From positions 1,674,001 through 1,738,000 of the forward strand of contig NZ_JAHWXM010000001.1 in assembly GCF_023091225.1 (NCBI RefSeq): 64,000 bases of DNA, read 5' to 3'. Each line of letters opens with the position of its first letter. Position 1 is the first letter of the stretch. This DNA comes from Microbacterium galbinum (GTDB lineage: Bacteria > Actinomycetota > Actinomycetes > Actinomycetales > Microbacteriaceae). A program made the position numbers and the translations under genes. The notes beneath the pieces are model-generated. The model saw nothing but the letters and a program-made list of their open reading frames with translations. It was not told the DNA's origin and made no database searches. Positions 8,307-40,406 of the stretch are shown one piece after another.

Positions 8307-9028
8307 TCCTGCTCCCCTTCGACCTCGTCGGCGTGCGAGATGTCGAGCAGCGGGAGGTCCTCGCGACTGACGAGACGCGAGGCGATCACGTGCTCGACGA
8401 GGCGGGCACGGCGGTTGGTGGCGAAGCTGCGCTGCCCTCCGCGCATACCGGGTACGCCCACGCGGTCGAACTTGTCGCACACGTTGTCGAGCTTGCGGTT
8501 GAAGCGGGTGACGGTCCAGCCCAGGCGCTCGGCGGCCTTCACCGACGTGGGGATGTCGCTCATGCCCGTGCCGTCGCGGCGCAGCTGCGGCTCGGCGAGC
8601 GCGAGGATCAGCAGCTTCTGGCTGAGGGTCAGGGGCACGTCCCCGATGGTCGACGCACCGCCGTCGTCGTGGTCGCGCCGGGTCGCGCGGAACGCGGGCT
8701 CGGCGGCGTGCAGGGTGAGCTCGTAGGTCGTCGGCCCCGCGCTGAAGACCACCGTGGTCTTCTCGAACACCAGCGGCAGTCGGGCGCCAGGCGCGAGCCA
8801 GGCCTGCACCCCGCCGGCCGAATCGGTCACGGTCGCCGTCAGCCGCGTGCCGACGTTCGACAGCCACCACAGCCCGTCGGCATCCGTGATCTCGAGGAAA
8901 TGCCGGTGCAGGAAGAGGTTGTCGTCGAGCTCGAGATCCCCCTCCCGGCCCACGATGAATCGTCCCCCGCGCTCGATGGGGAAGTACTCCCCGGCGAACT
9001 CGACGGTCACTCCGGTCGTACCGCTCAC
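8303..9028 (-). CDS. FHA domain fused to a C-terminal helix-turn-helix-like domain (241 aa)
   Basis: The GTG start at 9028 overlaps the kinase stop (GTGA); the ATG further upstream is inside the kinase gene. Residues about 5-100 form an FHA domain (VGRE, L-H-R-H, SNVG). After a short linker, about residues 130-230 are helical and basic, with PLTLSQKLLILALAEPQL followed by VKAAERLGWTVTRFNRKLDN, which resembles a winged or LuxR-like HTH. A phosphopeptide-binding module tied to a probable DNA-binding module suggests a regulator whose activity depends on the neighbouring kinase and phosphatase. It is the only candidate transcription factor in the locus, and so the best candidate to bind the palindromes at 266-283 and 25199-25216. 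The HTH assignment is by eye and could be a different helical fold. Confidence 0.75.
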   Translation of the reverse strand: MSGTTGVTVEFAGEYFPIERGGRFIVGREGDLELDDNLFLHRHFLEITDADGLWWLSNVGTRLTATVTDSAGGVQAWLAPGARLPLVFEKTTVVFSAGPTTYELTLHAAEPAFRATRRDHDDGGASTIGDVPLTLSQKLLILALAEPQLRRDGTGMSDIPTSVKAAERLGWTVTRFNRKLDNVCDKFDRVGVPGMRGGQRSFATNRRARLVEHVIASRLVSREDLPLLDISHADEVEGEQE

Positions 9029-25251: not shown

Positions 25252-25965
25252 TCAGGCGAAGACGACGAAGCCGAGCGTCACGAGCCCCGCGACCGACACC
25301 GCGCACGCACCGACGAAGGCGAGGAGCGCCGTGCGACTGCGGCGCACTCCCTGCCGCGCCACGGATGGGAGCCCCGGGTCCTCGATGCGGGTCGGTGCCG
25401 GACCGCCGCCGACCGCGGGCGGGGCCTTCGGCACGAGGGGAGCCGGGCGGGGCTTGTAGATCGCCGGCGGCTCGGGCTCGGTGGGGCGCTCGAACGAGAC
25501 CGGTCCCCGAGGGATCGTCGCATCGAGGTCGGACGGATCATCGAACACCGTGGTCCGCCGGCGACGCAGGCCGCGCCGGGGACGCACGATCGTCTCCTCC
25601 AGACCCGACGGCGCGACGGCAGCGCCGCCCGAGCGATCGACGACGACCGTCGACTCGTCCGGCTCGAACGATGCCGGGCGGGCGCGGTCGACCACGACGG
25701 TCGCCTCGTGGTCATCGTCCGACGATGTGTCGCGGGTACGGTCGACGACGATGGTCGCCTCGTCGATGTCGGATGCCGCGGGGCGGGAGCGCCCGACGAG
25801 CACCGTCGCCTCGTTGTCTTCCTCGACGTGCGCCCCGGCATCCGTCTGCGACGACGCCGGCTGCGACTCGGCATCCGCCTGCACGGACTCCGCCTGCTCG
25901 ACCGCGCGACGACGGTCGCGTCGCGTGACGATGACGGTCTCCTCGTCGATGCTCTCGTCGGTCAT
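25252..25965 (-). CDS. Tail-anchored protein with seven E-x-T-[VI] repeats (237 aa)
   Basis: I do not recognise a named family. The cytoplasmic part is acidic and carries a repeated motif centred on Thr at residues 10, 54, 71, 89, 106, 125 and 150. Examples are NEATVLVGR, DEATIVVDR, HEATVVVDR and DESTVVVDR. Five of these are spaced 17-19 residues apart. A basic, Pro-rich stretch follows, and the last 26 residues form a membrane helix ending at the stop, so the protein is tail-anchored. Acidic residues at -2 and a hydrophobic residue at +3 are what actinobacterial Ser/Thr kinases favour, and pT with hydrophobic +3 suits FHA binding. It is the last gene of the operon, overlapping the phosphatase stop (ATGA). 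It is inferred to be a multisite phosphothreonine platform for the FHA proteins. Confidence 0.8.
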   Translation of the reverse strand: MTDESIDEETVIVTRRDRRRAVEQAESVQADAESQPASSQTDAGAHVEEDNEATVLVGRSRPAASDIDEATIVVDRTRDTSSDDDHEATVVVDRARPASFEPDESTVVVDRSGGAAVAPSGLEETIVRPRRGLRRRRTTVFDDPSDLDATIPRGPVSFERPTEPEPPAIYKPRPAPLVPKAPPAVGGGPAPTRIEDPGLPSVARQGVRRSRTALLAFVGACAVSVAGLVTLGFVVFA

Positions 25966-26789
25966 CGCGCGCGCACCGGGATCGTCGTGCCCTCGAGCAT
26001 CGAATCGGTGCCGACCGACACCGCCAACCGGCCGGCCGTGTCGTCGTCACGGCCGGCGCGCAGGCCGCCGGCGACGACGTCGATCACGACGACCGAGACG
26101 TTGTCGCGTCCGCCCGCCTGCAGCGCCCGGCGCACCAGAGCGGATGCCGCGGTCTCCGGGCGTCCGCACATCGTGAGGGTGGCGCGGATCGCCTCGTCGC
26201 TCACCTCGCCGCTGAGACCGTCGGAGCAGAGCAGCAGGCGCTCGCCGTCGATCACCGGGAGGAGCCAGCTGTCGGCCTCGCTGTCGGCCGCGCCGATCGC
26301 GCGGGTGATGATGTTGCGCTGCGCGAAGGTCGCGAGGTCTTCGGGACGCATCTCGCCCGCGTCGACCATCTCCTGGCCGAGCGAGTGATCGATCGTCAGC
26401 TGCACGAGATCGTTGGCGTGATGGCGGTAGACCCGCGAGTCGCCGACGTTGAAGACGAGCCAGTGCGGCAGTCCTTCGTGCTCGACCAGGGCCACGCCCG
26501 AGACCGTGCTGCCGGCTCCCTGCTTGTGCGCGGCGGCGATCGACTCGACCACGGCGGTCGCGCGTCCCAGCGCCAGACGCACGTCATCGATCGTGACGGC
26601 GGTGCCCCGGAGTGGCTCGAAGGCGGCGACCACCGCGGCGCTCGCCCGGTCGCCGGCCTCGTGCCCGCCCATGCCGTCGGCCACGAGGAACACGGGGGCC
26701 GCGGTGAGCAGGGAGTCCTCGTTCGCGGCGCGCTTGAGACCGGTGTCGGTCAGTGACGCGACATTGAGGACGACCTGTTCGACGGTCAC
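25962..26789 (-). CDS. PP2C-family Ser/Thr phosphatase (275 aa)
   Basis: The GTG at 26789 overlaps the stop of the FHA gene (GTGA), which fixes the start; the longer frame overlaps that gene by 150 bases. Metal-binding motifs are all present: NEDSL, LVADGMGGHEAGDRAS, FNVGDSR, LLCSDGL and GGRDNVSVV. It is a paralogue of the phosphatase at 12095-12910 with the same overlap style. It should dephosphorylate the targets of the region 2 kinase, probably including the tail-anchored Thr-repeat protein encoded immediately after it. Confidence 0.94.
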   Translation of the reverse strand: MTVEQVVLNVASLTDTGLKRAANEDSLLTAAPVFLVADGMGGHEAGDRASAAVVAAFEPLRGTAVTIDDVRLALGRATAVVESIAAAHKQGAGSTVSGVALVEHEGLPHWLVFNVGDSRVYRHHANDLVQLTIDHSLGQEMVDAGEMRPEDLATFAQRNIITRAIGAADSEADSWLLPVIDGERLLLCSDGLSGEVSDEAIRATLTMCGRPETAASALVRRALQAGGRDNVSVVVIDVVAGGLRAGRDDDTAGRLAVSVGTDSMLEGTTIPVRAR

Positions 26790-28330
26790 GAATCGCGCTC
26801 CGCGATCACGTGCATCCCGACCTCGCCGAGGATGAAGCGTCCGGTTCCGACCACGCTCTCGCCCGGGTCGAGCAGCACCTCGGTGCCGTCCTCGGCCACC
26901 ACGACGACGCCGTTGGTCGCGTGCAGATCGGTCAGCCGCCACTCGTCATCGGTGACGACGAGTCGCGCGTGGGTCTTCGAGAGGGTGCGGGTCGCATCGG
27001 TGATCGACAGACGCTGCTCGCCCGGATCGCCCACCGGGTTGCGTCCGATCACGACGCTCGCGCCCGAGAGCGCGAAGCTGCGGCCATCGTCGAGCACGAG
27101 TGAGCGACGCACTCCGCGCTTGCGTGCCACGACGACGGTCGCCTCGAGGTCGTCGTCGACGGCGACCTGGCGGGGCTTGATGATCGTCTGTGCGAGGTCG
27201 TCGGCGAGCAGGTCGTCGGACTCGGCGTCGTGCGCGAGCAGAGCCTCCGCCGCCGACGTCTCGGTCGGCGCGGCGGGAGCGACCGGAGGAGTGGCGATCA
27301 GGGGGACGGGACGGATTCCGGGTGCCGGGGTCTCCGTCACGGGCGGCACCGTCGCGGCCGGAGCGGCCGGGGGCGCCGGGGGCGTGAAGACGGGCGGGGT
27401 CGGGGCGAAGGCGGGCGGCAGCGGGAACTCCTCGGCGGGACCCGCGGGTGCGGCCGGAGCGGCGAGAGGCACCGGGGCGGCGGCCGGAGCGGGCGGAGCG
27501 GCCGGCGGCGCGGCCGGAGCGGAGACGACCGGCGGCTGCGGAGCGGGTGCCGTGGGCGGAGCAAAGGACGGAGCCGGCGGCTGCGGGGCGGGGGCAGGCG
27601 GCTGCGGCGCGGCCTCGGACGGCGCGGCCACGGAAGGCTCGGGCGTGGAAGACTGCGGAACCGGGGGCTGAGGCGCAGACGCGGGAGCCTGCGGGGCGGG
27701 GGCGAACGCCTGCCACTCGGCCGGGATCCCGGCGTTCCCGGCGGGCGGGGCGGATGCCTCCGACCCGGCGTTCGTCGAGCGCGGGGCCGGGATGAATCCC
27801 CCCGACGGAGCCGCTCCGGCGTGTGCGGAAGCGGGGCGCTGCGGCGCGAAGGCCGGGAGCGCATAGTCGCGGGTGTCTCCGGTGGTCGGTTCGAGCAGCG
27901 GCTGGGGCGTGCGGCGCGGCCCCGGCTGCAGGGCCGCGAGGCGGTCGCCCTCCGGGTACGGCGGCGCCCCGGCGGCGAGGATCGTCGCCCACACGGGCGG
28001 CAGCAGGATCGCGAGCACCGTCGACCCGGCGCCGCGACCGAACTGCTGGTTGATCCGATGCGTCGCGATCACCTTGAGATAGATGCCGTAGATCTGCACG
28101 ATCGGGATCAGGTAGAACACGACCTTCCAGGCGGCGACGCCTCCGCGCGCGAGGATCTCGGCCTCGTTGAGGATGGGCACCCAGCCCTTCCACGCCTCTC
28201 CCCCGAGCCGCGGGAACAGGCGCGACAGCGCCACCGCGTACCAGACGTAGATCCCGAGGCCGAGGAGCAGGCCGACACCCCATCCGATGAGGAGCATCGA
28301 GAGCAGTCCGGACTCTGCTGACGGTGTCAT
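26786..28330 (-). CDS. DUF5684-like membrane protein with C-terminal FHA domain (514 aa)
   Basis: The ATG at 28330 overlaps the transglutaminase-like stop (ATGA). The first 135 residues hold three or four membrane segments with WKGWVPILNEAEIL, which resembles the DUF5684 family of small membrane proteins. About 240 residues of Pro/Ala-rich linker follow. Just before the FHA are LAQTIIKPR and DLEATVVVARK (Thr near 397), the same Thr motif as in the tail-anchored protein of this operon. The FHA spans about 405-510 (VIGRNP, L-S-K-T-H, TNG). A phosphorylatable Thr next to the FHA suggests intramolecular binding as in GarA, or competition with the tail-anchored repeats. It replaces the RDD-FHA protein found at this place in region 1. 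Confidence 0.86.
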   Translation of the reverse strand: MTPSAESGLLSMLLIGWGVGLLLGLGIYVWYAVALSRLFPRLGGEAWKGWVPILNEAEILARGGVAAWKVVFYLIPIVQIYGIYLKVIATHRINQQFGRGAGSTVLAILLPPVWATILAAGAPPYPEGDRLAALQPGPRRTPQPLLEPTTGDTRDYALPAFAPQRPASAHAGAAPSGGFIPAPRSTNAGSEASAPPAGNAGIPAEWQAFAPAPQAPASAPQPPVPQSSTPEPSVAAPSEAAPQPPAPAPQPPAPSFAPPTAPAPQPPVVSAPAAPPAAPPAPAAAPVPLAAPAAPAGPAEEFPLPPAFAPTPPVFTPPAPPAAPAATVPPVTETPAPGIRPVPLIATPPVAPAAPTETSAAEALLAHDAESDDLLADDLAQTIIKPRQVAVDDDLEATVVVARKRGVRRSLVLDDGRSFALSGASVVIGRNPVGDPGEQRLSITDATRTLSKTHARLVVTDDEWRLTDLHATNGVVVVAEDGTEVLLDPGESVVGTGRFILGEVGMHVIAERDS

Positions 28331-30876
28331 AGGGTCTCCTTCTGCCGGTCGTGGGGCGAACCGGCTACTGCGAGCGTACCGATCACCGGACGGCGACCCG
28401 CGAAACGAGGACCGCTCGTCGGCCTCGCCCGGCTCAGCAACGAGGTGAGGCGCACCCGCGCGACCAGCCGCCGCCACCGGCTGTCGGCCGTCGACAGCGC
28501 GGCTCGTTCGTCGTCGACGATCTGCCAGGCGGCGACGGCATCCGCATCGGTGGGCGGATGCCCCGCGAAGATGCCGCGGTCGACGAGCACCGCGAGCCGC
28601 ACAGCGGCCGAGCGATCGGTCGACCGGGCGCGCTGCACGCGCGTGCCCTGGGTCTGCAGGGCGACGTCGTGATCGGTGTACAGGTCGACGAGCTCTTCCC
28701 AGGCGCCCGCGAGCCGCACCTCGGGATCACCGGCGTCGCGCCGTGCGCGTGCCCGGCGGCCCTTCGCGATCAACAGCACCAGCAGGGGAAGCGCCAGGAG
28801 CACGAGCGCGAGGACGCCGAGACCGACGGCGCGCAGGATCGGCAGCAGAACGGCCAGGAACTCCGATTCGGGGGCCTCCAGCGGCGGAGCGTCGTCGTTC
28901 GAGTCGCTCTGCGCCTGCGGCGGATCGAGCGCCTCCGAGCGCGGCTGCTCCGGCACGGTCGGATGCTCGGGCAACTGCTCGCCCTCGGTGATCGCACTCG
29001 GCAGCATCGCGTACTGCGGCGTGACGTCGATCGGCATCCATTCGCCGCCGGTGGACCGCACCTCGACCCAGGCGCTCATGCTCTCGCCCGTGCAGACCTC
29101 GGTGCAGGCCGGGATGCCGGGCACCTCCTCGGCGCCCGCGAGACGCGCACCGATGACCACGCGCGACTCGAGGCCCCAGTGCTCGGCGAGCAGCGCGGCG
29201 GCCGTCGAGAACTGCTCGTCGTCTCCGATCGCCGACACGAGCAGCTCGGGCGCGGCATCCGACCCGGCCCGCCGCTCCTGCTCGACCATCGCGGTGAAGA
29301 CCTCTTCGATGCGCGCCGCCGAGTGACCGGCATAGCTCGAGGCGAAGCCGTAGCCCTCCGCCCCGTCGAGTGCGGCGATCCACCCGGCCGACGCGGCGTC
29401 GTCGAGCACCGCGTGGCTGAGGTAGCCGCGCGAGCGCAGTCGGTCGATCAGTTCGACGTAGCCGGCGCCGGTGCGCGGCTGCTCCTGCATCTCGGCCCAC
29501 TCGACCAGCGCGGGGAACGCGTCGGCGTCGAGCGTCGAGTCGCCGCCCTGCAGCGGCGCGATCCCGTCGCCGGTGGCCGGAGCGTCGACGAGCACCGAGT
29601 ACCGGTCGCCCGGAACCAAGCCGCTCCCCCCGCCCGGAGCATCCGCGATCGTGATGGCCGTGTCGCCGTCGGCGTCGATGTGGAACCCGTCGGCGAGAGC
29701 ATCCGCCCGTGATCCGGCGAACGCCGGCGCCTCGGCGAGTCCGGCGGGGGTCGGAACCCAGATGCCCCGGTAGGCATCGCCCACCGTGATGTCGAGCGCG
29801 ATACGACCCTCGCCCGGGCCGGCCGTGCGCGGGAGCCGGCTGAAGCGGTCGTCCTCGGCGATGTGGAAGTCGTTGCCGTCGTAAGCGTCGAGCGTGACGA
29901 GACGGACGCGATCGACGGCTCCGGGGTCGCCCTGCACGCCGAACACGGTCTCGTCGAGGCGATCCCCCGCGAACCACGCGCGGTAAGAGCCGAGTGGGCT
30001 GGTCTGCTGCTGCACGACGATCATCGGCTCGACCTCGTCGCGCAGCACCGATCGGTCGGTCCAGCCGGCGGCGACGGGGGCCGCCGCGACGCCGGCGACG
30101 AGCGCGACGACCACGAGCGCGCCCGCGAGCAGGTGCCGGCGGATGCTGAGCCACACCGGTGCCGCCCGGCGCGAGACGCCGGTCGCCGCGACGATGCGCA
30201 GCGCCTGCGCCCGCTCGATGCGCGCCCGGCCGATCACCCAGACCAGGGCGGCGGCGAACACCCCCACCCCGATGAGCCACTCGCGCGGAGCGGGCACCTC
30301 GATGCCGAAGACGACGACCGGCGAACTCGTCGCGCTCAACCCGAAGGCCACTCCGAAGACGCTCATCGCGGCGACGACCGGGACCGCCGCCAGGGCACGA
30401 CGCCCGGGATGGAGGGCGAGGAAGGTCGCGAGGAATCCGCCGAACAGCATCACGACGAGGAACGGGATGAGCACCGCCTGGTACTCGCCGAGCGGCGGGG
30501 CCAGGGTCAGCATCTGCTTCCAGCCGAGCACGACGCCGAACACGGCGTCGCGCAGGCCGCCGAGGAACGCGGGCACCGACGACAGCGCCGAGGGGATCGC
30601 CAGGGGGACGGCGACGATCAGGTACATCGCCACGGCCGCGAGCGCGGCGAGCAGAGCGCCCCAGCGCAGCATCCGCGCGAGGACCGCCACCCCCATCCCG
30701 AGCAGGCCGCCGGCGACACCGACGACGAGCGCGCGCGGCGACTCGTACACCGGCCAGGCGGCGGCCGTCGCGAGCGCGATGCCGACCGCCACGAAACCGA
30801 GCGCCCAGAACGTGAGGGCCGAGAACCGGAGTGCGGGGCCGTTCGCACCCCGGAGAGGCGTGCGCGTGCCGCTCAT
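28327..30876 (-). CDS. TgpA-like membrane protein with inactive transglutaminase domain (849 aa)
   Basis: The layout matches the region 1 paralogue: seven or so N-terminal membrane segments (to about residue 270), an outer domain, a transglutaminase-like core, one membrane segment and a cytoplasmic tail. In the core, IGDDEQFSTAAALLAEHWGL has Asp where the catalytic Cys should be. The His motif HAWVEV is changed to SAWVEV, so Cys and His are both lost. Two cysteines occur between these motifs (ACTEVC). It is presumably a non-enzymatic wall- or protein-binding domain. The start overlaps the DUF58 stop and the end overlaps the FHA gene, both ATGA. Confidence 0.9.
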   Translation of the reverse strand: MSGTRTPLRGANGPALRFSALTFWALGFVAVGIALATAAAWPVYESPRALVVGVAGGLLGMGVAVLARMLRWGALLAALAAVAMYLIVAVPLAIPSALSSVPAFLGGLRDAVFGVVLGWKQMLTLAPPLGEYQAVLIPFLVVMLFGGFLATFLALHPGRRALAAVPVVAAMSVFGVAFGLSATSSPVVVFGIEVPAPREWLIGVGVFAAALVWVIGRARIERAQALRIVAATGVSRRAAPVWLSIRRHLLAGALVVVALVAGVAAAPVAAGWTDRSVLRDEVEPMIVVQQQTSPLGSYRAWFAGDRLDETVFGVQGDPGAVDRVRLVTLDAYDGNDFHIAEDDRFSRLPRTAGPGEGRIALDITVGDAYRGIWVPTPAGLAEAPAFAGSRADALADGFHIDADGDTAITIADAPGGGSGLVPGDRYSVLVDAPATGDGIAPLQGGDSTLDADAFPALVEWAEMQEQPRTGAGYVELIDRLRSRGYLSHAVLDDAASAGWIAALDGAEGYGFASSYAGHSAARIEEVFTAMVEQERRAGSDAAPELLVSAIGDDEQFSTAAALLAEHWGLESRVVIGARLAGAEEVPGIPACTEVCTGESMSAWVEVRSTGGEWMPIDVTPQYAMLPSAITEGEQLPEHPTVPEQPRSEALDPPQAQSDSNDDAPPLEAPESEFLAVLLPILRAVGLGVLALVLLALPLLVLLIAKGRRARARRDAGDPEVRLAGAWEELVDLYTDHDVALQTQGTRVQRARSTDRSAAVRLAVLVDRGIFAGHPPTDADAVAAWQIVDDERAALSTADSRWRRLVARVRLTSLLSRARPTSGPRFAGRRPVIGTLAVAGSPHDRQKETL

Positions 30877-32243
30877 CGGAGCGCTCCTCGGGCCAGCATC
30901 TGCGGCAGATCGCCGAGCGCTCCGAGGGTCATGACCGACAGCTCGCGGGCCGTGCGCATCGTGGGCTGCTCGCCGAGCTCGCTGCGCACGGCGACGGCGT
31001 CGACCTGGGCGGGCAGCTTCACCGCGGCGTGCCGCAGTCGCTCGAGCGGTGTGCGCGATCCGGTGAGCAGGAAGCCGATCGAGAGGTCGGGGTAAGACTG
31101 CACCGTCAGCGCTGCCACGGCCTCGAGGCGCATGACCCGGTCGGACGCGTCGAGGGTCGAGGTCGCGTCGAGCATCGCCTTCGGGGTGACGGTCGGAAGG
31201 GTGCGGATCGACAGCACCTCGGTGCGACTGTGCTCGGGGATCTCGTTGCTCACCGAGAACAGCACGTCGCGGCCGTCGCGCACGCCCTGCAGCGCGAGGG
31301 ATGCCGCGGCGCTCACCGTGTTCTCGAACTCGTCGTCGCTGTCGTACGACTCGGCGTCGAGGTCGAGGATGATCGCGATGCGGGCGTGCCGGGACTCCTC
31401 GTACTGCCGCACCATGATCGTGCCGGTCTTGGCGGTCGACTTCCAGTGCACGTGGCGCTGCGAGTCGCCCACGACGTACTCGCGCACGGCGTGGAACGAC
31501 AGGTCGGCGTCGACGAGCGTCGTGCTGGGGGTGCCGTCGAGGTCGCGGATGAGCCCCGCACTGGTGCTCGGGATGCGCACGGTGACCGGGTGCACATGGA
31601 TGCGCTGCACCTCGGGCCAGCGCATCTCGCGGCGGAGGATGCCGATCGGGTCGCCACGCGTGATCGTCATCGGCCCGACGTCGATCACGCCGCGACGGTG
31701 CGCCGCGATCGTGAGCTCTTCGCGGTGGTGCCCGTCGGGGCGCAGCAGCGGCACGTGCGCCTCGACCAGGCCCTCGCCGACCGGAACGTCGACCACGCCG
31801 GGCAGCGACAGGCGGGTGCCGTTGTTGCGCACGTCGAGCGTCGCGCCGATCTCAGCCCCCGCGACCACACGATCACGGTCGAGAGCGAGGTGAATGCGGT
31901 AGTCGTGCGCGCCCAGCACGAAGGGCACGCACACGATCAGGAGCACCAGCGCGATCGCGGCCACGGCCCACGCCTCGACCCAGCCGAAGAGCAGTCCCGC
32001 GACGACGCCGAGTACCAGGGCCGCGGCCACGAGCATCCCCGCGGCCGTCACCGTCTCGCGCACCCAGCCGGCCGTGCGACGACCGGCGCGCGTCACGGTG
32101 CGAGCCGCTCGGCGCATGCCGAACACCGCTCCCCGCACGGGGCCGCGGCGCGTACGCGAGTACCGCGTCACCGTCGCCGTGCGCGTCGAGGTCGACGTGC
32201 CGGCGGTGGTGCGGGTCAGGCGCGATTCGGTGTTGAAGCTCAC
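30873..32243 (-). CDS. DUF58 domain protein (456 aa)
   Basis: A Thr/Ser/Arg-rich N-terminal cytoplasmic tail of about 70 residues is followed by two membrane segments and the DUF58 domain with DSQRHVHWKSTAKTG. The vWA-like part reads IAIILDLDAESYDSDD, closer to a metal-site pattern than in the region 1 paralogue. The Thr-rich tail (many T/S within the first 32 residues) has no counterpart in the paralogue and could be a kinase target. ATGA overlaps join it to MoxR upstream and to the transglutaminase-like gene downstream. Confidence 0.93.
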   Translation of the reverse strand: MSFNTESRLTRTTAGTSTSTRTATVTRYSRTRRGPVRGAVFGMRRAARTVTRAGRRTAGWVRETVTAAGMLVAAALVLGVVAGLLFGWVEAWAVAAIALVLLIVCVPFVLGAHDYRIHLALDRDRVVAGAEIGATLDVRNNGTRLSLPGVVDVPVGEGLVEAHVPLLRPDGHHREELTIAAHRRGVIDVGPMTITRGDPIGILRREMRWPEVQRIHVHPVTVRIPSTSAGLIRDLDGTPSTTLVDADLSFHAVREYVVGDSQRHVHWKSTAKTGTIMVRQYEESRHARIAIILDLDAESYDSDDEFENTVSAAASLALQGVRDGRDVLFSVSNEIPEHSRTEVLSIRTLPTVTPKAMLDATSTLDASDRVMRLEAVAALTVQSYPDLSIGFLLTGSRTPLERLRHAAVKLPAQVDAVAVRSELGEQPTMRTARELSVMTLGALGDLPQMLARGALR

Positions 32244-33229
32244 GCAGTGCCGTTCTCGCGCGGGGGTTCGACGTCGAGCAGGATCTGGCCGACCACGGCC
32301 ACCGCGGTCACGCCGTCGAACTCGGCCTCGGGCTCGAGCACGAGTCGGTGCGCCAGAGCGACGACGGCGAGCTCGCGCACGTCGTCGGGGGTGGCGTAGG
32401 TGCGCCCGTTCTTCGCGGCCCAGGTCATCACGAGCCGCGACAGCGCGATCGCACCGCGCACGCTGGCCCCCAGACGCACCTCGGATGCCCGGCGCGTGGC
32501 GTCGACGATGCGCATGATGTAGTCCGAGACGAGCGGGTTCACGTACACGCCGCGCGCCATCTCGGTCATCGTCAGGATGGTGTCTGTGCCGACGATGCCG
32601 TCGAGCACGCGGGTCGGCTGCGCCGCACCCTGCAGGATGCGCATGGTCGCCGCGTCATCGGGGTAGCCGATCGACGTCTTGATCATGAAGCGGTCGAGCT
32701 GCGCCTCGGGCAGACGGTAGGTACCGCCCTGCTCGATGGGGTTCTGCGTCGCCATCACGAGGAACGGCGAGCCGACCGGGCGGGTGACGCCGTCGACCGT
32801 GACGGTGCCCTCCTCCATGACCTCGAGCAGCGCGGACTGCGTCTTGGGGCTCGCGCGGTTGATCTCGTCGGCGAGCACGATGTTCGCGAACACCGGACCC
32901 GCGTGGAACTCGAACGTGCCCTCCTTCTGGTCGTACACGGTGATGCCCGTGACGTCGCCGGGGAGCAGGTCGGGGGTGAACTGGATGCGCGTGCTCGTGC
33001 CCGAGATGGTCTGGCCGATGGCCCGGGCGAGCGCGGTCTTGCCGGTGCCCGGGTAGTCCTCGAGCAGCACGTGCCCCCCGCTGATGCCCGCCGCGAGCAC
33101 CAGCTCGACGATGTGGCGCTTGCCGAGCACGACCTGCTCGACGTTGCCGGTGAGGATCGAGAACGTCTCGGCGAACCAGGCGGCCTGTTCGGGGGCGATG
33201 GTCACGGGTGCAGCGGAGGAAGCAGGCAT
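32240..33229 (-). CDS. MoxR-family AAA+ ATPase (329 aa)
   Basis: Walker A is GTGKTALARA (from residue 61), Walker B is VLADEINRA, and QSALLEVMEE and ATQNPIEQGG follow as in the region 1 paralogue. I take ATG 33229 (MPASSAAPVT) because it starts after the giant gene ends and gives the family length. An ATG at 33304 would overlap the giant gene by 38 bases. The Shine-Dalgarno is weak at either site. The 37-base gap to the surface-protein gene mirrors the gap in region 1. Confidence 0.92.
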   Translation of the reverse strand: MPASSAAPVTIAPEQAAWFAETFSILTGNVEQVVLGKRHIVELVLAAGISGGHVLLEDYPGTGKTALARAIGQTISGTSTRIQFTPDLLPGDVTGITVYDQKEGTFEFHAGPVFANIVLADEINRASPKTQSALLEVMEEGTVTVDGVTRPVGSPFLVMATQNPIEQGGTYRLPEAQLDRFMIKTSIGYPDDAATMRILQGAAQPTRVLDGIVGTDTILTMTEMARGVYVNPLVSDYIMRIVDATRRASEVRLGASVRGAIALSRLVMTWAAKNGRTYATPDDVRELAVVALAHRLVLEPEAEFDGVTAVAVVGQILLDVEPPRENGTA

Positions 33230-33266
33230 AGGAGCAACAGTATTCTTCTCGATGGTCTCGGACGGG

Positions 33267-36200
33267 TCAGGGGCAGGGGGCGGGGACGCGGTGCGTGATG
33301 GCATCCAGCTGCCCGTACGCACCTGTCCAGGTGAGGGTGATGTCATAGGCGCCCTCGGGCGCCGCGGGGTCGACCGCCACCGCGGCGGGAGGCAGATGCG
33401 ACCCGCTCGCCGCGCCCGAGACGCTCACGACGTCGGCGATGTTCTCGGGCAGGCATTCGCGGAACTGGACGTTGACGATCGTGGGCACGGTTTGGGCGGT
33501 GATCTGCACCGGTGCCGAGCAGTACCCCGTCACGAACGTGTGGCATGCCTGTGCGAGCACCTGGGCGGGTGCGGTGTCGGCGGTCAACGAGAACTCCGAG
33601 CGCCACGTGCCGTAGACGTTGTACTGTGCCGCGAACCCGTCGCGCACCGAGATCGACGGTCCGCGTTCGAGCGGGTAGGAGTACGAGTTTCCGCTCTGGT
33701 TCGGCGTCGTCGCGACGCGATAGCTCGTGTCACCTCCGGGGCCCTCGACCGACGTGAAGGTGAACACCTGTGTGGCAGAGGTCTCGCTGACGCCGTAGCC
33801 GTTCGAGGCGCATGCCTTGACGTTGTACAGCTGGTACTCGACCAGCCCGTCCAACGAGGGAGAGGGGGATTGCTTCTCGGCTCCCGACACCCGGAGTTCC
33901 CCGCTGGGGCCGGCCGTGCACGAGACGGTGCCGGAGCGCCACGCGACGTAGGTCACGTTCACGCCGAGCGCGCTGCCGTTCGCCTGTGCTGCTCCGGTGC
34001 CAGGAGAGGCGATGCTGATCGAGGTGTTGGACGACGGCCTGGCATCCGTGTGCGACGGATCGAAGAACACAGTTCCCGCCACCGTCGCCTGCGTGGTGAA
34101 CGCGCCACCCTCGTTGCCCGCGTTGCCGGTCGGCGGCTGGAACTGGCTGATCGGCACGATCGTGAGCGTCTGCGCACCCGGAGCGAGCGTGATCTGGGCC
34201 GCCGTCGTTCCGCCCGTGCGATCGATGACCTGCCCCGTCTCCTCGACGCGGAACGAGCGCGCGTCATCGGGGGCATCGATCGAGAGGCTCACGACACCCT
34301 GTGTCCGGCTGGTCGTGCCGGCCACATACACCGGCGTCGCCGTCGCGTTCGACACCGTCGGCGCCGCGTACGCCCAGCTGGTGTGCGCGGAGGTCGGAGC
34401 CGATGCACCGACGGAGTTGACCGCGGATGCCGTGAACGCATGCGGTTCGCCGTTGACCAGGCCGTTCACCGTGCAGCGGTACAGGCCGCCACCGGCCGGC
34501 CCGCACGAGGCGTTCGCGGCCGCGCCGTCCTGCTGGATCGTCACGCCGGTCACCGAGGGGTGCGCGCGTCCGGCCTCACCGAGCGGCACCTCGAGCACGA
34601 CGGTCGAGCGCGTGTACCCGACGGTCGTGACGCTCGCCGGCGCCTGCGGGTAGCCCTGCAGATCGAGGGTGAGGGTGCCCGTGCCGGTGCGGCCCTGAGC
34701 ATCCGCCACCACGAACGGCACCACGCACTGCCCGCCGGGAGCCTGCCCGCCGCCGGGCCAGCTCGCGGTGATCGCGCGCTCTCCCGACGCGGCGAGCGTC
34801 GCGACGTCGCACCGGGCGCCGGAGCCGAGCGACACCAGCTTCAAGCCGGAGCCCTGCTTGCCCGCGAACGGGTCGTACTCGCCGGCGATGTCGACGACGT
34901 CGATCGAGCAACTGGGGCTGGTCACGACGCACTGCTTCGTGAAGGTCGCCCCGCGCGGAGCATCCGGCGGCGCCGCACCGACGACCAGACGCACGGATGC
35001 CGCGGCCTCGCCGTACTGCGAGACGGTCACCTCGACGGCCTCGGCGGAGCCGGGCCGCGCGTCGGCGTGCGCCTCGACGGTGAGCGTCGGGCCGTTCTGC
35101 GTGACCGTGAACGAGGCGCCGCTGTAGACCGTGCGGAAGTCGAGCGAACGGGCGTCGCCTTCGCGGCCGCCCTCCCAGCTCGCCATGTTCGCGTAGAGGT
35201 CGAAGTCCGCGCTCGCGCCCGGCGCGACGGTGTGGGCGATCGACGAGAGCAGCAGTTGCGGCTCGGCGGGACGGATGCTGATGGGCACGTCGATGTACGA
35301 CCAGCGCTCCTGGCCCTGGAGCCGCACCGGCACGAGGCACGTGTCGGACCAGGGCGACTCGCGGCCGGCGCGATAGGTCGCCTCTCCCCCGCCTGCGGGG
35401 AGGCAGACCGCGGCGGCGCGCTGCGTGGTGAACTCGCCCGTTCCGATCTCGACCGCGTCGCTCGCCGCGAGGTCGAGGTAGTCGGCAACGGTGAACGTCG
35501 CCTCGGCGTCTTCGTCGACCACGACCGGGGTCGCGCCCGGCGTGATCTGCACCTGCATGTCGTCGAACGCGGGGATGTGCAGGAACCCGTAGGCGACGAC
35601 GTCGCGTCCGCCCGCAGCGGTGCCCGTGAGCTGGAACGGCACGAGGGTGCCCTCGGCCGGGGCCGCGCCGACGATGCGGTCGCCCTGCGCCGAGAAGCCG
35701 GGCTGGTCACCCCAGAGGCTGAGCTTCAGCGAGCTCGCGTCGCCCGACGGCCAGCTGACCCGGTCGGTGACGACGTCGATGCCGCGGTCGGCGAGATCGT
35801 CGCGGTCGCGCGCGGTGAGCACCGTGTCGGCGACGGTGGGCTGGTCGGTCACGGCGCCATCGGTCACCGAGACGACGATGAGGCCCTGCGCGGTGCTCTG
35901 CGTGCGGCTCGACGTCACCGTGTAGAAGTAGGAGTTCGTGCCCGCCACGTCGCCCGCGCGCAGCACGACGCGTCCGTCTTCGAGCGACGTGTCGGGGTCG
36001 ATCAGCGACTTCAGCCGCTCGTAGAGCGGGTTGCCGGCGACGGGCGGAGCGTTGGGCACCAGTTCGGTGATCTCGAGGTCGCCCTGCGCCGGGTCGAGAT
36101 CGTTCGCCCGGGGGTCGAGCACGATCGGCGTCGACGACCCGGCCTCGACGCGCACGTAGTCGCTGAAGGTCACCGGGGCCGCATCGTCGATGTCGGCGTC

Positions 36201-39200
36201 GAGCACGCCGATCCGCACGAGTCCGGTGCCCGTCTCGCCCTGCGGATCGCGCACGGTGTAACGGAAGGTCGCCTGGCCGCCGTCGACGCCTCCGGCCGGA
36301 GCGCGGTAGACGATCGAGTCGCCGCGCGCCGAGATCGTGGCCGTGCCGGCGCCCTTGCCGGGCTGATCGATGCCGGCGAGCACGACGCGGTCGCCGTCGC
36401 TGTCCATCCCGGTGGCGGGCACCGACAGCGAGACGGTCTGCCCGCTGAGCACCCGACCGGTGAGCGTGGTGGGCGTGGGAGCACGGTTGGTGCCCGGCGG
36501 CACGACGGTCACCGTCACGGCGCCGTCGTCGGAGAGGGACGGGTTGCGCTCGAGCGACACCGAGTAGGTGAGCCGGTACGTGCCGGGCGTCGACGGGGCG
36601 AGATAGCGGAGCGCGTTGCCGTCGGCGAAGACGAGCTCTCCCGCCTCACCCGAACCGGTCACCTCGGGCTGCACGACGAGGGGTTCGCCCCGCGGTGCGA
36701 CGTCGTTGGCGGTCACGTTGATGCGGGTGAGCGACCCCGCCCGCACGGTGATCGCGTCGGGGAAGACGATCGGGCGGGTGACGGTCGACGGCGGCGTGAG
36801 GAAGACGGTGACCGTTCCCTCGACGGCCGCACCCGAGCCGTCGGCGACGGTGACGCGTGCACGGCCGATCACGCCCGGCTCGCCGTCGTCGGTCGTGCCG
36901 TTGACGCGGATGCTCTCGTTGTTGACGACGCGCACGCTCAACTGGGGCGACGAGCTCTCGGCTCCCGAGAGCATGAGCACGCGGCCCGTCGTGTTCTGCA
37001 CGGCACTGAGCACGTCGACCGTGGTGTCCTCGCCCTCGCGCACGAAAGCGGTGAGCGGAGCCATCGCGAGGGGAGCCGCCCCGTCGACCGCCGTGATGCG
37101 GATCACGGCCGACTGCTCGGCCTGCGTCGTGGCATCCTGTGCGGTGTACGTCACGACGTACTGACCGGGCTCGGCGACCGTGAGCTCGACGTCGCCGGAG
37201 GCGAGGTTCGGCGCGACCTCGAGGCCCGCCGCCGTCGCCGCCGTCTGCACGGCGTCGACCAGGCGGTACGACCCGGAGCCCCCGGAGAGGTGATCGGAGA
37301 TGCGGATCGACTGGGGCTCCCCCACCCGCGCGGTCAGCGCGACCGGCGAGGCGAGGAGCGCGGGGCTGCCGGTGACCTGCACGTCGAGGTTCTTCTCGGC
37401 GCGCGCACCGTGCACGTCTTCGACCACGACGGTCACGGGGATGACGGCATCCGAGGCGTTCGGGTCTGTGTGACGGATCGCGACCCGACCGTCGGCCATG
37501 GGAACGACCATCACGGGGGCGGCGGAGTCGGTCTCGTAGGCGTCGACGAGCACGAAGGGATCGCCCTCGGGGTCGACCCATCCCGACAGCGCCGAGACGA
37601 CCGTGCTGCCGCCCGGAAGCAGCTGCGGTGTCGGCCACTCCTGCTGGCACGCGTCGACACCGCACCAGACCGGGGCGGAGTTCACCCCGGGATCGACGAC
37701 GGTGAGCGTGACGGTGGCGGGCGGCGACACCGCGGCCCCGTCGGTCACGGCGTACGTGAAGGAGGTCTGTCCGCTCGTCGCGGTCACGTCGACGACGAGC
37801 GACTGTCCGTCGGACACGAGCGACAGCCGACCGAAGCCGTCGTCGCCGAGCCCCGCCGACACCGACTCGGGGTCGATCGTCAGGACGTCCTTCTTGTTCG
37901 GATCGTGGTCGTTGAGAAGCACGGGCAGGATGACCTGCTCGCCGGCCCGCACGCCGAACGAGTCGTCGACGGCGACGGGCGGCATCTGCTCCGCCACGTC
38001 CTCGACGATGATCGTGCCCTCCTGCTGCTCGGTGTCGTCGTCGATCGCCCACTGCTCGAGCGGGATGAGCACGCCGTCCGGTGCCGTCCAGAGCAGACCG
38101 GTGCCGATCTCGCTGAGCACCACGCGGTCGCCGTTGCCCTGGAAGACGGGTTCGATGGTCGCGGACTCGAGCGCGTCGTCGGGGACGGACAGCGACGTGG
38201 TCTCGCCGCCGGCCCACAGGGTGCCGGACCCGGTGTCGAGCCAAGCGGCGTAGGTCGTCGTGCCGACCACGACAGGGCGCGCGGGGACGCCGGATGCTTC
38301 GGCGATACGCTCCGAGTCGCCCGAGGCGAGCGCCACCGAAACGAGACCGTCGGAGTCCGCGACGACGACGTCGTCACCGGATGCCGCGCCCGCCTGCAGT
38401 CGTGCGCCCTCGGCGACGTCGATCGTGATCGGGGCGTCGGCGCCCGACGTCCAGAGTCGCCCTTCCGCGGCCTGGAGCATCGCCCAGCGATCGCCGACCA
38501 CGGTGAGCTCGAGACCGTCACCGCCCTCGGGGGCGTCGGACACCTCGGCACCGTCTCCGAGGAAGCGGTGCTCATCGATGTCGAACCGGCGCACCGCGCC
38601 CTCTTCGGCCGAGTAGAGCGCGAGCACGCCCTCGGGCGAGAGGCCGATCGCATTGGCCGTGTACGACGGCGGGTCCTCGCCCTCCTCGACCTCGACCGCG
38701 GCGAAGGGGTCGACCAGAGCCGTGCCCGCCCCCGCGTCGAGGGTGGTGACCGAGACCTGTCCGGTGTCGGTGCGATAGGCCACGTACGGCCCGGCCGACA
38801 CGATCTCGCGGGTTCCGGCCGGGGTCGGCTCGGAGGCGAGAGGAGTGCCCTCGTCGCCGGCATCCGCGATCAGGTCTCCGGGGCTCGCGGGATCGAGGTC
38901 CCAGCGCTGGCGGTTGCCCTGTGCGTAGAGCACGGCCGAGGAACCGCTCTGCCACACGGCTTCGGGATCGTCGACGTTGCGCACCGTGTCGATCTCGGCG
39001 AGGTCGGTGTTGACCCGCGCGTACTGGCCGCTGTCGCGCATGACCCAGACGGCCGATTCCAGACGGGGCACCTCCTGCGACTGGTAGCCCTGCGCCGTGA
39101 CGGCGAGGGTGACGACCACGGCGAGAGCCGCGACGCCCGAGATCGCGGCGATGACGCGCCCGCGGGAGCGGGGCCTCGTCGCGGTGCGGTCGCGTTCGCC

Positions 39201-39209
39201 GATCGCCAT
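33267..39209 (-). CDS. Giant membrane-anchored surface protein with Ig-like and FN3-like domains (1980 aa)
   Basis: This is a paralogue of the region 1 giant. The start could be ATG 39209 or GTG 39212; both overlap the kinase stop. A basic N-terminus is followed by one membrane segment (about residues 20-42), a beta-propeller-like region to about 390, an acidic linker, and Ig/cadherin-like repeats from about 408 (PPVAVDDSFGVRAG is nearly the same as in the paralogue). FN3-like domains start near 1520. Cysteine pairs occur in the second Ig-like unit and in the C-terminal half. Here the kinase gene directly precedes it and lacks an outer domain of its own, so this protein may supply the extracellular sensing part. 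Confidence 0.9.
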   Translation of the reverse strand: MAIGERDRTATRPRSRGRVIAAISGVAALAVVVTLAVTAQGYQSQEVPRLESAVWVMRDSGQYARVNTDLAEIDTVRNVDDPEAVWQSGSSAVLYAQGNRQRWDLDPASPGDLIADAGDEGTPLASEPTPAGTREIVSAGPYVAYRTDTGQVSVTTLDAGAGTALVDPFAAVEVEEGEDPPSYTANAIGLSPEGVLALYSAEEGAVRRFDIDEHRFLGDGAEVSDAPEGGDGLELTVVGDRWAMLQAAEGRLWTSGADAPITIDVAEGARLQAGAASGDDVVVADSDGLVSVALASGDSERIAEASGVPARPVVVGTTTYAAWLDTGSGTLWAGGETTSLSVPDDALESATIEPVFQGNGDRVVLSEIGTGLLWTAPDGVLIPLEQWAIDDDTEQQEGTIIVEDVAEQMPPVAVDDSFGVRAGEQVILPVLLNDHDPNKKDVLTIDPESVSAGLGDDGFGRLSLVSDGQSLVVDVTATSGQTSFTYAVTDGAAVSPPATVTLTVVDPGVNSAPVWCGVDACQQEWPTPQLLPGGSTVVSALSGWVDPEGDPFVLVDAYETDSAAPVMVVPMADGRVAIRHTDPNASDAVIPVTVVVEDVHGARAEKNLDVQVTGSPALLASPVALTARVGEPQSIRISDHLSGGSGSYRLVDAVQTAATAAGLEVAPNLASGDVELTVAEPGQYVVTYTAQDATTQAEQSAVIRITAVDGAAPLAMAPLTAFVREGEDTTVDVLSAVQNTTGRVLMLSGAESSSPQLSVRVVNNESIRVNGTTDDGEPGVIGRARVTVADGSGAAVEGTVTVFLTPPSTVTRPIVFPDAITVRAGSLTRINVTANDVAPRGEPLVVQPEVTGSGEAGELVFADGNALRYLAPSTPGTYRLTYSVSLERNPSLSDDGAVTVTVVPPGTNRAPTPTTLTGRVLSGQTVSLSVPATGMDSDGDRVVLAGIDQPGKGAGTATISARGDSIVYRAPAGGVDGGQATFRYTVRDPQGETGTGLVRIGVLDADIDDAAPVTFSDYVRVEAGSSTPIVLDPRANDLDPAQGDLEITELVPNAPPVAGNPLYERLKSLIDPDTSLEDGRVVLRAGDVAGTNSYFYTVTSSRTQSTAQGLIVVSVTDGAVTDQPTVADTVLTARDRDDLADRGIDVVTDRVSWPSGDASSLKLSLWGDQPGFSAQGDRIVGAAPAEGTLVPFQLTGTAAGGRDVVAYGFLHIPAFDDMQVQITPGATPVVVDEDAEATFTVADYLDLAASDAVEIGTGEFTTQRAAAVCLPAGGGEATYRAGRESPWSDTCLVPVRLQGQERWSYIDVPISIRPAEPQLLLSSIAHTVAPGASADFDLYANMASWEGGREGDARSLDFRTVYSGASFTVTQNGPTLTVEAHADARPGSAEAVEVTVSQYGEAAASVRLVVGAAPPDAPRGATFTKQCVVTSPSCSIDVVDIAGEYDPFAGKQGSGLKLVSLGSGARCDVATLAASGERAITASWPGGGQAPGGQCVVPFVVADAQGRTGTGTLTLDLQGYPQAPASVTTVGYTRSTVVLEVPLGEAGRAHPSVTGVTIQQDGAAANASCGPAGGGLYRCTVNGLVNGEPHAFTASAVNSVGASAPTSAHTSWAYAAPTVSNATATPVYVAGTTSRTQGVVSLSIDAPDDARSFRVEETGQVIDRTGGTTAAQITLAPGAQTLTIVPISQFQPPTGNAGNEGGAFTTQATVAGTVFFDPSHTDARPSSNTSISIASPGTGAAQANGSALGVNVTYVAWRSGTVSCTAGPSGELRVSGAEKQSPSPSLDGLVEYQLYNVKACASNGYGVSETSATQVFTFTSVEGPGGDTSYRVATTPNQSGNSYSYPLERGPSISVRDGFAAQYNVYGTWRSEFSLTADTAPAQVLAQACHTFVTGYCSAPVQITAQTVPTIVNVQFRECLPENIADVVSVSGAASGSHLPPAAVAVDPAAPEGAYDITLTWTGAYGQLDAITHRVPAPCP

Positions 39210-40342
39210 CACAGGACCCCGGTGAGGAAGAGGATGCCGACGCCGACGCCCGCGATCACGACAGCGCCCACGAGCGCGCCGATCACTCCGGCGACGAGCG
39301 GAGAACGCGACGGGGCCCGGGTCGCGACCGGCAGGTCGTCGCGGTCACGGGCAGCGCCCTGCTGCTTCGCGGCGCGTGCGGCGCGACGGGAGTCGGGAGC
39401 GACGGTGGTGACGACGGGGCCGCGGGGCGCGGCATCCGAGAAACTGACCGGCGAGGCCGCGGCCCACTCGGCGGATGCCGCCTCGAAGGCGGTGGGCGCG
39501 ATGCCGAGCTCGTACTGCGCATGACGCAGACGGTCGGCGAACGCGGCCATGCTCGGGAACCGGCGCGCCGGATCCTTCTCCATCGCCGTGGCGAGGATCT
39601 CGTCGATGACCTTCGGCATGCCCGCGATCGGCAGCGGTGTGTACTTGGCCTTCACGATGCGCTGCGTGAGCAGCTCACGCGTGTTCGACGCACGGTCGTC
39701 GCGCTCGAAGGGGCTGCGGCTGGAAAGGAGGGTGTACAGCGTCGCCCCGAGGCTCCAGACCTCGCTGGGTACCGAGCCCGACACCTTCTCCTGCAGCACC
39801 TCGGGGGCGCTCCACGGGATCGACATCGCGATGGTCTCGGAGTCGCCCTCGTCGAGCACCGCGGCCGCGATGCCGAAGTCGGCGAGCACCGGCGCACCGA
39901 GCGAGTTGATGAGCACGTTCGAGGGCTTGATGTCGCGATGCAGCAGCCCCGCCCGGTGCACGGTCTCGAGCGCGCCGGCGATGCGCACGCCGATATCGAG
40001 CACCTCGGCGAGCGGCAGCGGTGCCTTCTTGTAGCGGGCGCTCATCGTGTCGGGGCAGTACTCCATCGCGAAGTACGGGCGCCCGTCCGACGAGATCGAC
40101 GCCTGATAGATCGTGACGATCGACGGATGCGCGCTGAGGCGGGCGGAGATGTCGGCCTCGACGTTGAACGCGCGCAGCACGTCGGAGTTCACGGCATCCG
40201 CCAGCAGCACCTTCACCGCGGCGACGCGGCGGGGCATGTCCTGCTCGTAGAGGAAGACGTCGGCGAATCCACCGGAGCCCAGCGGGCGCACGTAGCTGTA
40301 GCCCGACAGCACCGGAGGCGTGGAGGCAATCCGCTTCGCCAC
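39209..40342 (-). CDS. Membrane-anchored Ser/Thr protein kinase without outer domain (377 aa)
   Basis: I take GTG 40342 as start: it has GGGGGAGGG just upstream and aligns with the start of the region 1 kinase (both have PPVL-x-G at residues 8-14). ATG 40366 is an alternative. The kinase domain has GSGGFADVF, K44 in AAVKVLL, HRDIKPSN (D138), DFG at 155-157 and SAPE. A basic linker leads to a single membrane segment at about 352-374, and the protein ends three residues later, so there is no extracellular sensor. It is the first gene of the region 2 operon and corresponds to Pkb2 of the bifidobacterial PFNA cluster. Confidence 0.93.
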   Translation of the reverse strand: MAKRIASTPPVLSGYSYVRPLGSGGFADVFLYEQDMPRRVAAVKVLLADAVNSDVLRAFNVEADISARLSAHPSIVTIYQASISSDGRPYFAMEYCPDTMSARYKKAPLPLAEVLDIGVRIAGALETVHRAGLLHRDIKPSNVLINSLGAPVLADFGIAAAVLDEGDSETIAMSIPWSAPEVLQEKVSGSVPSEVWSLGATLYTLLSSRSPFERDDRASNTRELLTQRIVKAKYTPLPIAGMPKVIDEILATAMEKDPARRFPSMAAFADRLRHAQYELGIAPTAFEAASAEWAAASPVSFSDAAPRGPVVTTVAPDSRRAARAAKQQGAARDRDDLPVATRAPSRSPLVAGVIGALVGAVVIAGVGVGILFLTGVL

Positions 40343-40406
40343 TCGCCCTCCCCCGGGAATTGTCATCGACGGGGGTCGCATCGAAAGCGCCGCGGCACGA
40401 GCGCAC

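Follow-up and report, generated by a model that had tools for sequence, protein, structure and literature searches.

A tail-anchored protein with an array of threonine motifs ends a conserved kinase-phosphatase-FHA gene cluster in Microbacterium: a candidate multivalent phosphothreonine scaffold

The window analyzed here, a 64,000-nucleotide stretch of the Microbacterium galbinum genome, carries on its minus strand at 25252-25965 a single open frame encoding a 237-residue protein, here called the ladder, with seven threonine motifs and a C-terminal membrane anchor (open frame, relatives and structural model). The seven threonines singled out in a first-pass annotation of this DNA lie where it placed them, each within [DE]-x-T-[VI]: Thr10 in D-E-E-T-V-I-V-T-R (25921-25947), followed by R-D-R-R-R, the T-R-R-x-R-R-R run at this motif being common to most Microbacterium homologs aligned; Thr54 in N-E-A-T-V-L-V-G-R (25789-25815); Thr71 in D-E-A-T-I-V-V-D-R (25738-25764); Thr89 in H-E-A-T-V-V-V-D-R (25684-25710); Thr106 in D-E-S-T-V-V-V-D-R (25633-25659); Thr125 in L-E-E-T-I-V-R-P-R (25576-25602); and Thr150 in L-D-A-T-I-P-R (25501-25527), all on the minus strand. 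The narrower context that it proposed, [DEHN]-E-x-T-[VI]-V-x, holds for Thr71, Thr89 and Thr106 (three of seven) and fails at the others, where +2 is I, L or P or -3 is L. Its regular spacing is as described, Thr54, Thr71, Thr89, Thr106 and Thr125 being separated by 17, 18, 17 and 19 residues.

Such an array is far above chance expectation. Across 100,000 shuffles of the cytoplasmic part, [DE]-x-T-[VI] occurred 0.57 times on average and at most five times, against seven in the ladder; when a hydrophobic residue, P or R was also required at +2/+3, the ladder still scored seven, against a shuffled mean of 0.04 and a maximum of three. A strict genome-wide DNA pattern ([DE]-x-T-[VIM]-hydrophobic-hydrophobic-x-R) gave 16 matches in the 3.57-Mb genome, versus three for the reversed pattern used as control. 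Five of the 16 fall in the ladder gene, one in the gene of a neighboring FHA protein (FHA1, see below) and one in the FHA core of another (FHA2), while the other nine, judged by reading, are mostly shadow frames or enzyme interiors. GC content by codon position in the ladder gene (0.76/0.56/0.88) is similar to that of neighboring genes on the same strand.

An AlphaFold model built with 34 sequences (mean pLDDT 60.9) has helices at residues 15-32 and 202-236 and nowhere else, with pLDDT mostly below 50 across residues 38-127 and values of about 95 or higher over the final three blocks of the C-terminal helix. The ladder is thus modeled as disordered up to one C-terminal helix, which by the model and by hydrophobic-segment analysis contains the membrane anchor (25258-25362, minus strand). 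A hydrophobic segment that ends at most 12 residues from the C-terminus and is preceded by more positive charge than follows it is found in 120 of 120 family members. The disordered, tail-anchored architecture put forward earlier stands. Just ahead of the anchor, homolog alignment reveals a conserved stretch (residues 166-208; 25342-25470, minus strand) of the form P-x-I-Y-K-P-R-P-A-P-L ... T-R ... P-S-V-A-R, in which Y170, R173, P179, R193, S201 and V202 are invariant across 34 aligned homologs. Unlike the motifs, this stretch is present in a single copy, and it may dock another partner.

Judging from gene order, the ladder is the last gene of a conserved eight-gene cluster, a context new relative to the first-pass annotation. 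All eight genes lie on the minus strand, in the order Ser/Thr kinase (39209-40381; Pfam Pkinase), which has a membrane helix at its C-terminus and no domain after this helix; a 1981-residue Ig-repeat surface protein (33267-39212; Pfam Big_9) with an N-terminal hydrophobic segment, whose true start probably lies lower than 39212; a MoxR-type AAA ATPase (32240-33346) and a DUF58 protein (30873-32243), both from the domain scan; TgpA1, a membrane transglutaminase-like protein (28327-30876; Pfam Transglut_core); FHA1 (26786-28330), in which Pfam matches delimit an N-terminal membrane part (DUF5684), a long Pro/Ala-rich linker and a C-terminal FHA domain; the phosphatase PP2C1 (25962-26789; Pfam PP2C_2, with an NCBIfam Stp1-type match under its cut-off); and the ladder. 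The kinase, PP2C and FHA neighbors originally reported are therefore borne out by Pfam. FHA1 overlaps PP2C1, and PP2C1 the ladder, by four bases each (GTGA and ATGA). In a set of 20 neighborhood loci, drawn from nine genomes and eleven named records with one genome present in both, the eight-gene order is kept in 20 of 20 to the limits of the stretches read. Recognition of the ladder succeeded with the window proteins in 17 and by other searches in the remaining three (G058, G172 and G186).

The same kinds of gene, starting with the kinase and closing with PP2C and FHA genes, make up the Bifidobacterium PFNA operon, reported as pkb2, fn3, aaa-atp, duf58, tgm, prpC, an unknown seventh gene and fha (PMC8430577), and the window cluster has the PFNA-type order of kinase, large surface protein, MoxR, DUF58 and transglutaminase. 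It differs in its surface protein, which carries Big_9 and lacks any fn3 match at E up to 0.01, in place of the fn3 protein of PFNA. As far as the available text of PMC8430577 and PMC6803598 goes, this type of cluster was described as unique to bifidobacteria; a counterpart with the same gene order exists in Microbacteriaceae. We considered whether the seventh PFNA gene might be a ladder, and rejected this for one Bifidobacterium locus (L055), where the gene between phosphatase and fha (9411-10651) encodes a leucine-rich-variant protein (PF25591), a name that its B. longum relatives also bear. In L055 the FHA protein carries D-D-I-E-D-W-D-S-T-V-L ahead of its FHA domain.

Sequence comparison indicates that the ladder is a real protein family. 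A protein search returned 124 relatives, of which those listed with a source name are hypothetical or uncharacterized, and the close homologs with an organism name are from Microbacterium. Neither Pfam-A nor NCBIfam contains a matching family (0 models in both at E up to 0.01), in agreement with the initial impression that no family had been described. We assembled a set of 120 sequences, comprising the window ladder and 119 of the matches listed (the best 120 of 124, with P0003, 99% identical, left out). Motif number per protein ranges from two to ten in this set, and up to 18 in more distant loci. In [DE]-x-?-[VI]-[VIL]-[VIL], with the last 60 residues left out, the middle residue is Thr in 427 cases, Ala in one and Ser in none; the first-pass annotation had proposed just such a comparison, of motif number against threonine retention, and the family passes it. 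Over 580 motifs in the 120 sequences, R occupies +5 in 93% and I, L or V occupies +3 in about 88% (about 73% outside the genus). Among ten close orthologs, gaps ignored, all seven motif Thr columns are invariant, versus one of six other Thr and five of 15 Ser columns.

Copy number differs even between close relatives, and near-identical repeat units in P0047, L097 and L123 point to recent duplication. Both observations could be read as neutral tandem duplication of a motif of which one copy would suffice. We regard this as the least credible of the readings weighed here, since motifs are better kept than the spacers between them: mean identity to the window ladder is 0.90 at motif positions and 0.97 at motif Thr, against 0.79 for the rest of residues 3-161. 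The scarcity of closely spaced motifs (three of 463 spacings of nine residues or fewer, versus 18% in random placement) was also considered as a hint that each motif has one reader, and set aside; with a motif that itself spans about nine residues, a lower limit is expected in any case.

Direct sequence searches recovered a ladder in 2 of 58 relatives (query P0002) and in 9 of 297 genomes of the order (alignment A1), the own genome being counted in both. It is important to note that such searches miss diverged ladders, as became evident on reading the genes downstream of TgpA1. Of 160 genomes of the family, 59 match TgpA1 at E 1e-60 or lower; downstream genes were read in 38 of these, and 27 have the FHA1/PP2C/ladder cluster by score or by hand. 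Together with the 20 neighborhood loci and L048 they form a set of 48 loci, equivalent to 47 genomes because G144 and L026 look like one genome. The set leaves out L098, L103, L104 and L106-L113, without a PP2C1-like gene above cut-off, and includes L081, L093, L102 and L105, added by hand despite a phosphatase under cut-off; the ladder frames of L090 and L100 were also picked by hand, L083 has no FHA domain in the fetched stretch, and L088 ends at a contig end. With a pattern permitting F at +2, 46 of the 48 loci have a ladder of two or more motifs (45 without F, which misses L086), counted on stop-to-stop frames, such that a few motifs may precede the true start or sit in the C-terminal stretch. 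In L084, no recognizable ladder was found in the downstream stretch read. In L099, a tail-anchored frame (1918-2595, gene direction) occupies the place of the ladder with no strict motif, while the FHA1 linker of this locus contains two Thr motifs and its same-genus relative L097 has a ladder with 11. Loss of the threonine by homologs that keep the rest had been named as evidence against a phosphothreonine role; the threonine is kept generally, but L099 is a case of the kind so named. In L085 and L087 FHA1 follows the ladder, giving the phosphatase, unknown gene, FHA order of the Bifidobacterium operon. In L093, a ladder-like frame (2351-3355) repeats every seven residues (S-D-E-T-V-A-V), and its twelve motifs are more tightly spaced than any others seen.

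Within the genus, TgpA1 has a match at 1e-100 in 64 of 99 genomes. Twenty of the 64 were read further, of which one (L114) has the cluster type of the window and 19 (L115-L133) have a second type, in whose stretches no PP2C gene was recognized at any of the 19 loci. A tail-anchored frame stands behind FHA1 in 17 of the 19, and 15 of these 17 have at least two [DE][DE]xT. Where [DE][DE] is accompanied by R four to five residues later, the residue two after the acidic pair is T in 50 cases, S in two, V in 25 and A in 13 (17 loci); we take the V and most A counts to be probable register shifts. Several of these proteins start with a common stretch ending V-T-L-W-A-G-R-L-R-A-W-P.

The ladder motif recurs in FHA1 and a related one in PP2C1, neither of which the first-pass annotation mentions. 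The linker of FHA1 contains D-L-E-A-T-V-V-V-A-R (27122-27148, minus strand; Thr codon 27137-27139), which precedes the G of the FHA G-R by 31 residues, and a second, weaker D-L-A-Q-T-I-I-K-P-R (Thr codon 27185-27187, minus strand). A Thr motif precedes the FHA domain in 45 of the 47 loci with a recognizable FHA domain, the last one lying 27-30 residues (29 in 32 of the 45) before the hydrophobic start of the G-R anchor; the two exceptions are L081, without the motif, and L105, with Ala for Thr and the ladder still present. By reading, all 20 FHA1 linkers of the second Microbacterium sample also contain the cis motif. The C-terminal tail of PP2C1 has a related motif, L-E-G-T-T-I-P-V-R-A-R (25965-25997, minus strand), and T-[ILV]-[PT]-[VL] with acidic residues shortly before it is present in this tail at 20 of 20 loci read.

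The FHA domain of FHA1 itself appears intact. G-R, S-x-x-H and N-G are invariant across 38 aligned sequences, and we take these to be the FHA residues that contact phosphothreonine. In an AlphaFold model of an FHA1 piece the domain is folded, with pLDDT above 90 over most of its length. The unphosphorylated cis motif is undocked in the model and residues 1-31 of the piece have pLDDT below 50, the model being silent on the phosphorylated state. Searched directly against PDB sequences, the FHA1 piece on its own returned no match; PDB matches of the 38-sequence profile include the FHA domains of FhaA (TB39.8), GarA, OdhI, ArnA and Rv1747. The FHA domain of GarA binds the protein's own phosphorylated Thr motif, located in an N-terminal extension that is unstructured (PMC5448819, PMC12321487). 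FHA1 resembles GarA and OdhI in having a Thr motif in a disordered stretch N-terminal to the FHA domain (45 of the 47 loci; pLDDT below 50). It differs in that the GarA motif is ETTS, whereas FHA1 has E-A-T-V-V-V-x-R and variants, ETTS not being encountered; in that FHA1 is a membrane protein; and in that GarA has no ladder partner in the portions of the literature examined.

At the sequence level we thus observe a conserved motif array of variable copy number on an anchored protein, in a constant neighborhood, with the same motif in FHA1 and a related one in the phosphatase tail. We hypothesize, with slightly better than even confidence, that a kinase phosphorylates the ladder at multiple sites and that the resulting phosphothreonines recruit FHA proteins to the membrane, in competition with the motif of FHA1 itself. 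The membrane kinase of the cluster would phosphorylate the ladder threonines and PP2C1 would take the phosphates off. Each phosphothreonine would then serve as an FHA docking site, first for the neighboring FHA1, as we infer from the motif, the neighborhood and the intact FHA site. With the kinase active, FHA1 might bind its own motif, as GarA does, or that of a neighbor, and the cis motif would compete with the ladder or build chains; the multi-copy ladder would outcompete self-binding and collect several FHA proteins in a membrane patch, from which they would be released when the phosphatase is active. In the weakest step, a guess from the operon, the patch might gate MoxR, DUF58 and transglutaminase as they handle the giant Ig-repeat surface protein.

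What is known of kinases and FHA domains elsewhere is broadly consistent with such a role. In the available portion of PMC7164672, M. tuberculosis peptides that lose phosphate on PknA depletion have acidic residues at -1 and -3 to -6, L/V at +3 and K/R at +4, and the acidic residues and L/V at +3 of the ladder fit such PknA-dependent sites by analogy. FHA domains are reported to need phosphothreonine strictly, with pTxx[ILV] and pTxx[ED] among the motifs listed (PMC8786283, seen in part), and the occurrence of Thr without Ser at ladder motifs fits readers of this kind. The same features might instead belong to a multi-site sink or counter of kinase and phosphatase activity, which would delay, buffer or set a threshold for kinase output with no FHA docking: threonines, acidic flanks and variable copy number are all compatible with it, and positions +1 to +3, which an FHA domain would read, drift. 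Ser would do equally well in a sink, however, yet the position is Thr only, and FHA1 is a constant neighbor with an intact phosphothreonine site and the same motif beside it. We consider a sink unlikely, if worth keeping in mind.

That drift qualifies the preferences originally invoked for the motif. Acidic residues before the threonine and L/V or [ILV] at +3 agree with the two sources just cited, as far as their available text extends, but +1 to +3 drift between lineages, where T-R-I-V, T-V-V-T, T-V-L-S and T-E-I-S are found, and the +3 rule is accordingly valid among relatives of the window ladder and not everywhere. Outside the genus, by a pattern permitting V, I or R at +1, R is present at +1 in 33% and V at +3 in 66%. 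Whole arrays switch jointly, with T-V-V-T ten times in L097, T-E-I-S in L123, and T-V-F at 16 of 16 motifs in the 802-residue ladder of L086 (1553-4159, gene direction). We regard it as very improbable that the repeats are unphosphorylated D-E-x-T-V-V-V-D-R units adding as beta-strand peptides to the edge of a folded partner. The hydrophobic residues at +1 to +3 among the relatives of the window ladder would suit strands, but an unphosphorylated strand would accept V, I or S for T, and lineages with T-R, T-E, T-A and Ser/Pro at +3 keep the acidic residues and Thr only.

FHA1's own motif keeps T-[VIM]-hydrophobic. Similarity between this motif and that of the ladder at +1 to +4 is higher within a genome (0.442) than in random pairing (0.345, p 0.0001, 19 genus representatives); with descent controlled, the own genome scores 0.464 against 0.495 for the nearest relative (p 0.78, 34 loci). 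With the signal gone against the nearest relative, we rejected co-evolution of the cis motif with the ladder as not demonstrated. At +2, both proteins of L086 have F, whereas the same-genus L094 has V in its FHA1 motif and V or L in its ladder, which is suggestive of one paired change.

Directly behind the ladder, window 2270-25216 contains a second kinase/PP2C/FHA/MoxR/DUF58/TgpA cluster, comprising a 2068-residue Big_9/fn3 protein, MoxR, DUF58, TgpA, RDD-FHA, PP2C, FHA2, kinase, a further RDD-FHA and an FtsK-type ATPase (FtsK-FHA) whose FHA domain is N-terminal. Other families of the order have related sets too; in 11 of 12 loci read there, the transglutaminase is nearer that of the second set. 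The second kinase (9025-10656) has Thr in acidic or T-x-R contexts (D-D-E-H-T-L-L-R, F-E-Q-T-Q-L-R) between its kinase domain and membrane helix, and may carry docking sites of its own. With four further FHA proteins in the window and nine FHA matches in the genome, the ladder might be a docking strip read mainly by RDD-FHA, FHA2 or FtsK-FHA of the second cluster and not by FHA1, and several genomes have R at +1 in the ladder while the FHA1 motif keeps V, I or M. In most loci read the second cluster is not next to the ladder, whereas FHA1 is, and we therefore consider a reader other than FHA1 rather improbable.

Docking of FHA1 and its relatives on a phosphorylated ladder would follow a principle already known, that of multivalent phosphothreonine with FHA at a membrane. 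Rv1747, an M. tuberculosis ABC transporter acted on by PknF and PstP, forms condensates and membrane nanoclusters that are promoted by the kinase and reversed by the phosphatase (PMC9312465, in the part available). The two are alike in principle, Rv1747 combining FHA domains with a disordered, phosphorylated linker at the membrane, phosphorylation of the ladder being putative. They differ in that Rv1747 has both in one transporter polypeptide, whereas here the putative acceptors are on a separate tail-anchored protein of variable motif number that has no domain match, the FHA domain sits in the neighboring protein, and a single polypeptide of the Rv1747 type was not encountered. The PpkA-Fha system of type VI secretion similarly pairs a kinase with an FHA scaffold at the inner membrane, where condensates that recruit the machine are reported (PMC12607579); the available text of that source names no ladder-like protein, and no T6SS component was recognized among the cluster proteins scanned. 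In the open-access literature, outside which most subscription papers lie, we found no description of a separate tail-anchored protein consisting of little but a variable-copy motif.

If the docking hypothesis is correct, bacteria would possess in the ladder a natural, minimal phosphothreonine scaffold that is multivalent and brings its own controls: copy number runs from 2 to 18 among relatives, the partner has one or two cis copies, and the phosphatase has a related motif at its tail. It would offer a direct route to asking how copy number sets switching and clustering, and an unannotated gene would gain a testable role. It is tempting to speculate further, as a possibility that we consider less likely than not, that such tail-anchored proteins, lacking any fold of their own, form a dedicated class of bacterial linear-motif scaffold, that repeat number sets how many FHA proteins are gathered at the membrane, with duplication tuning the phospho-switch, and that the motif is a trans copy of the FHA1 cis switch, such that the choice between self-binding and scaffold-binding controls surface-protein assembly. 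Elsewhere in the window, a 1744-residue open reading frame (47801-53035, minus strand) whose sole Pfam match is MalQ_N (E 8e-9) adjoins DUF5819 and HTTM genes.
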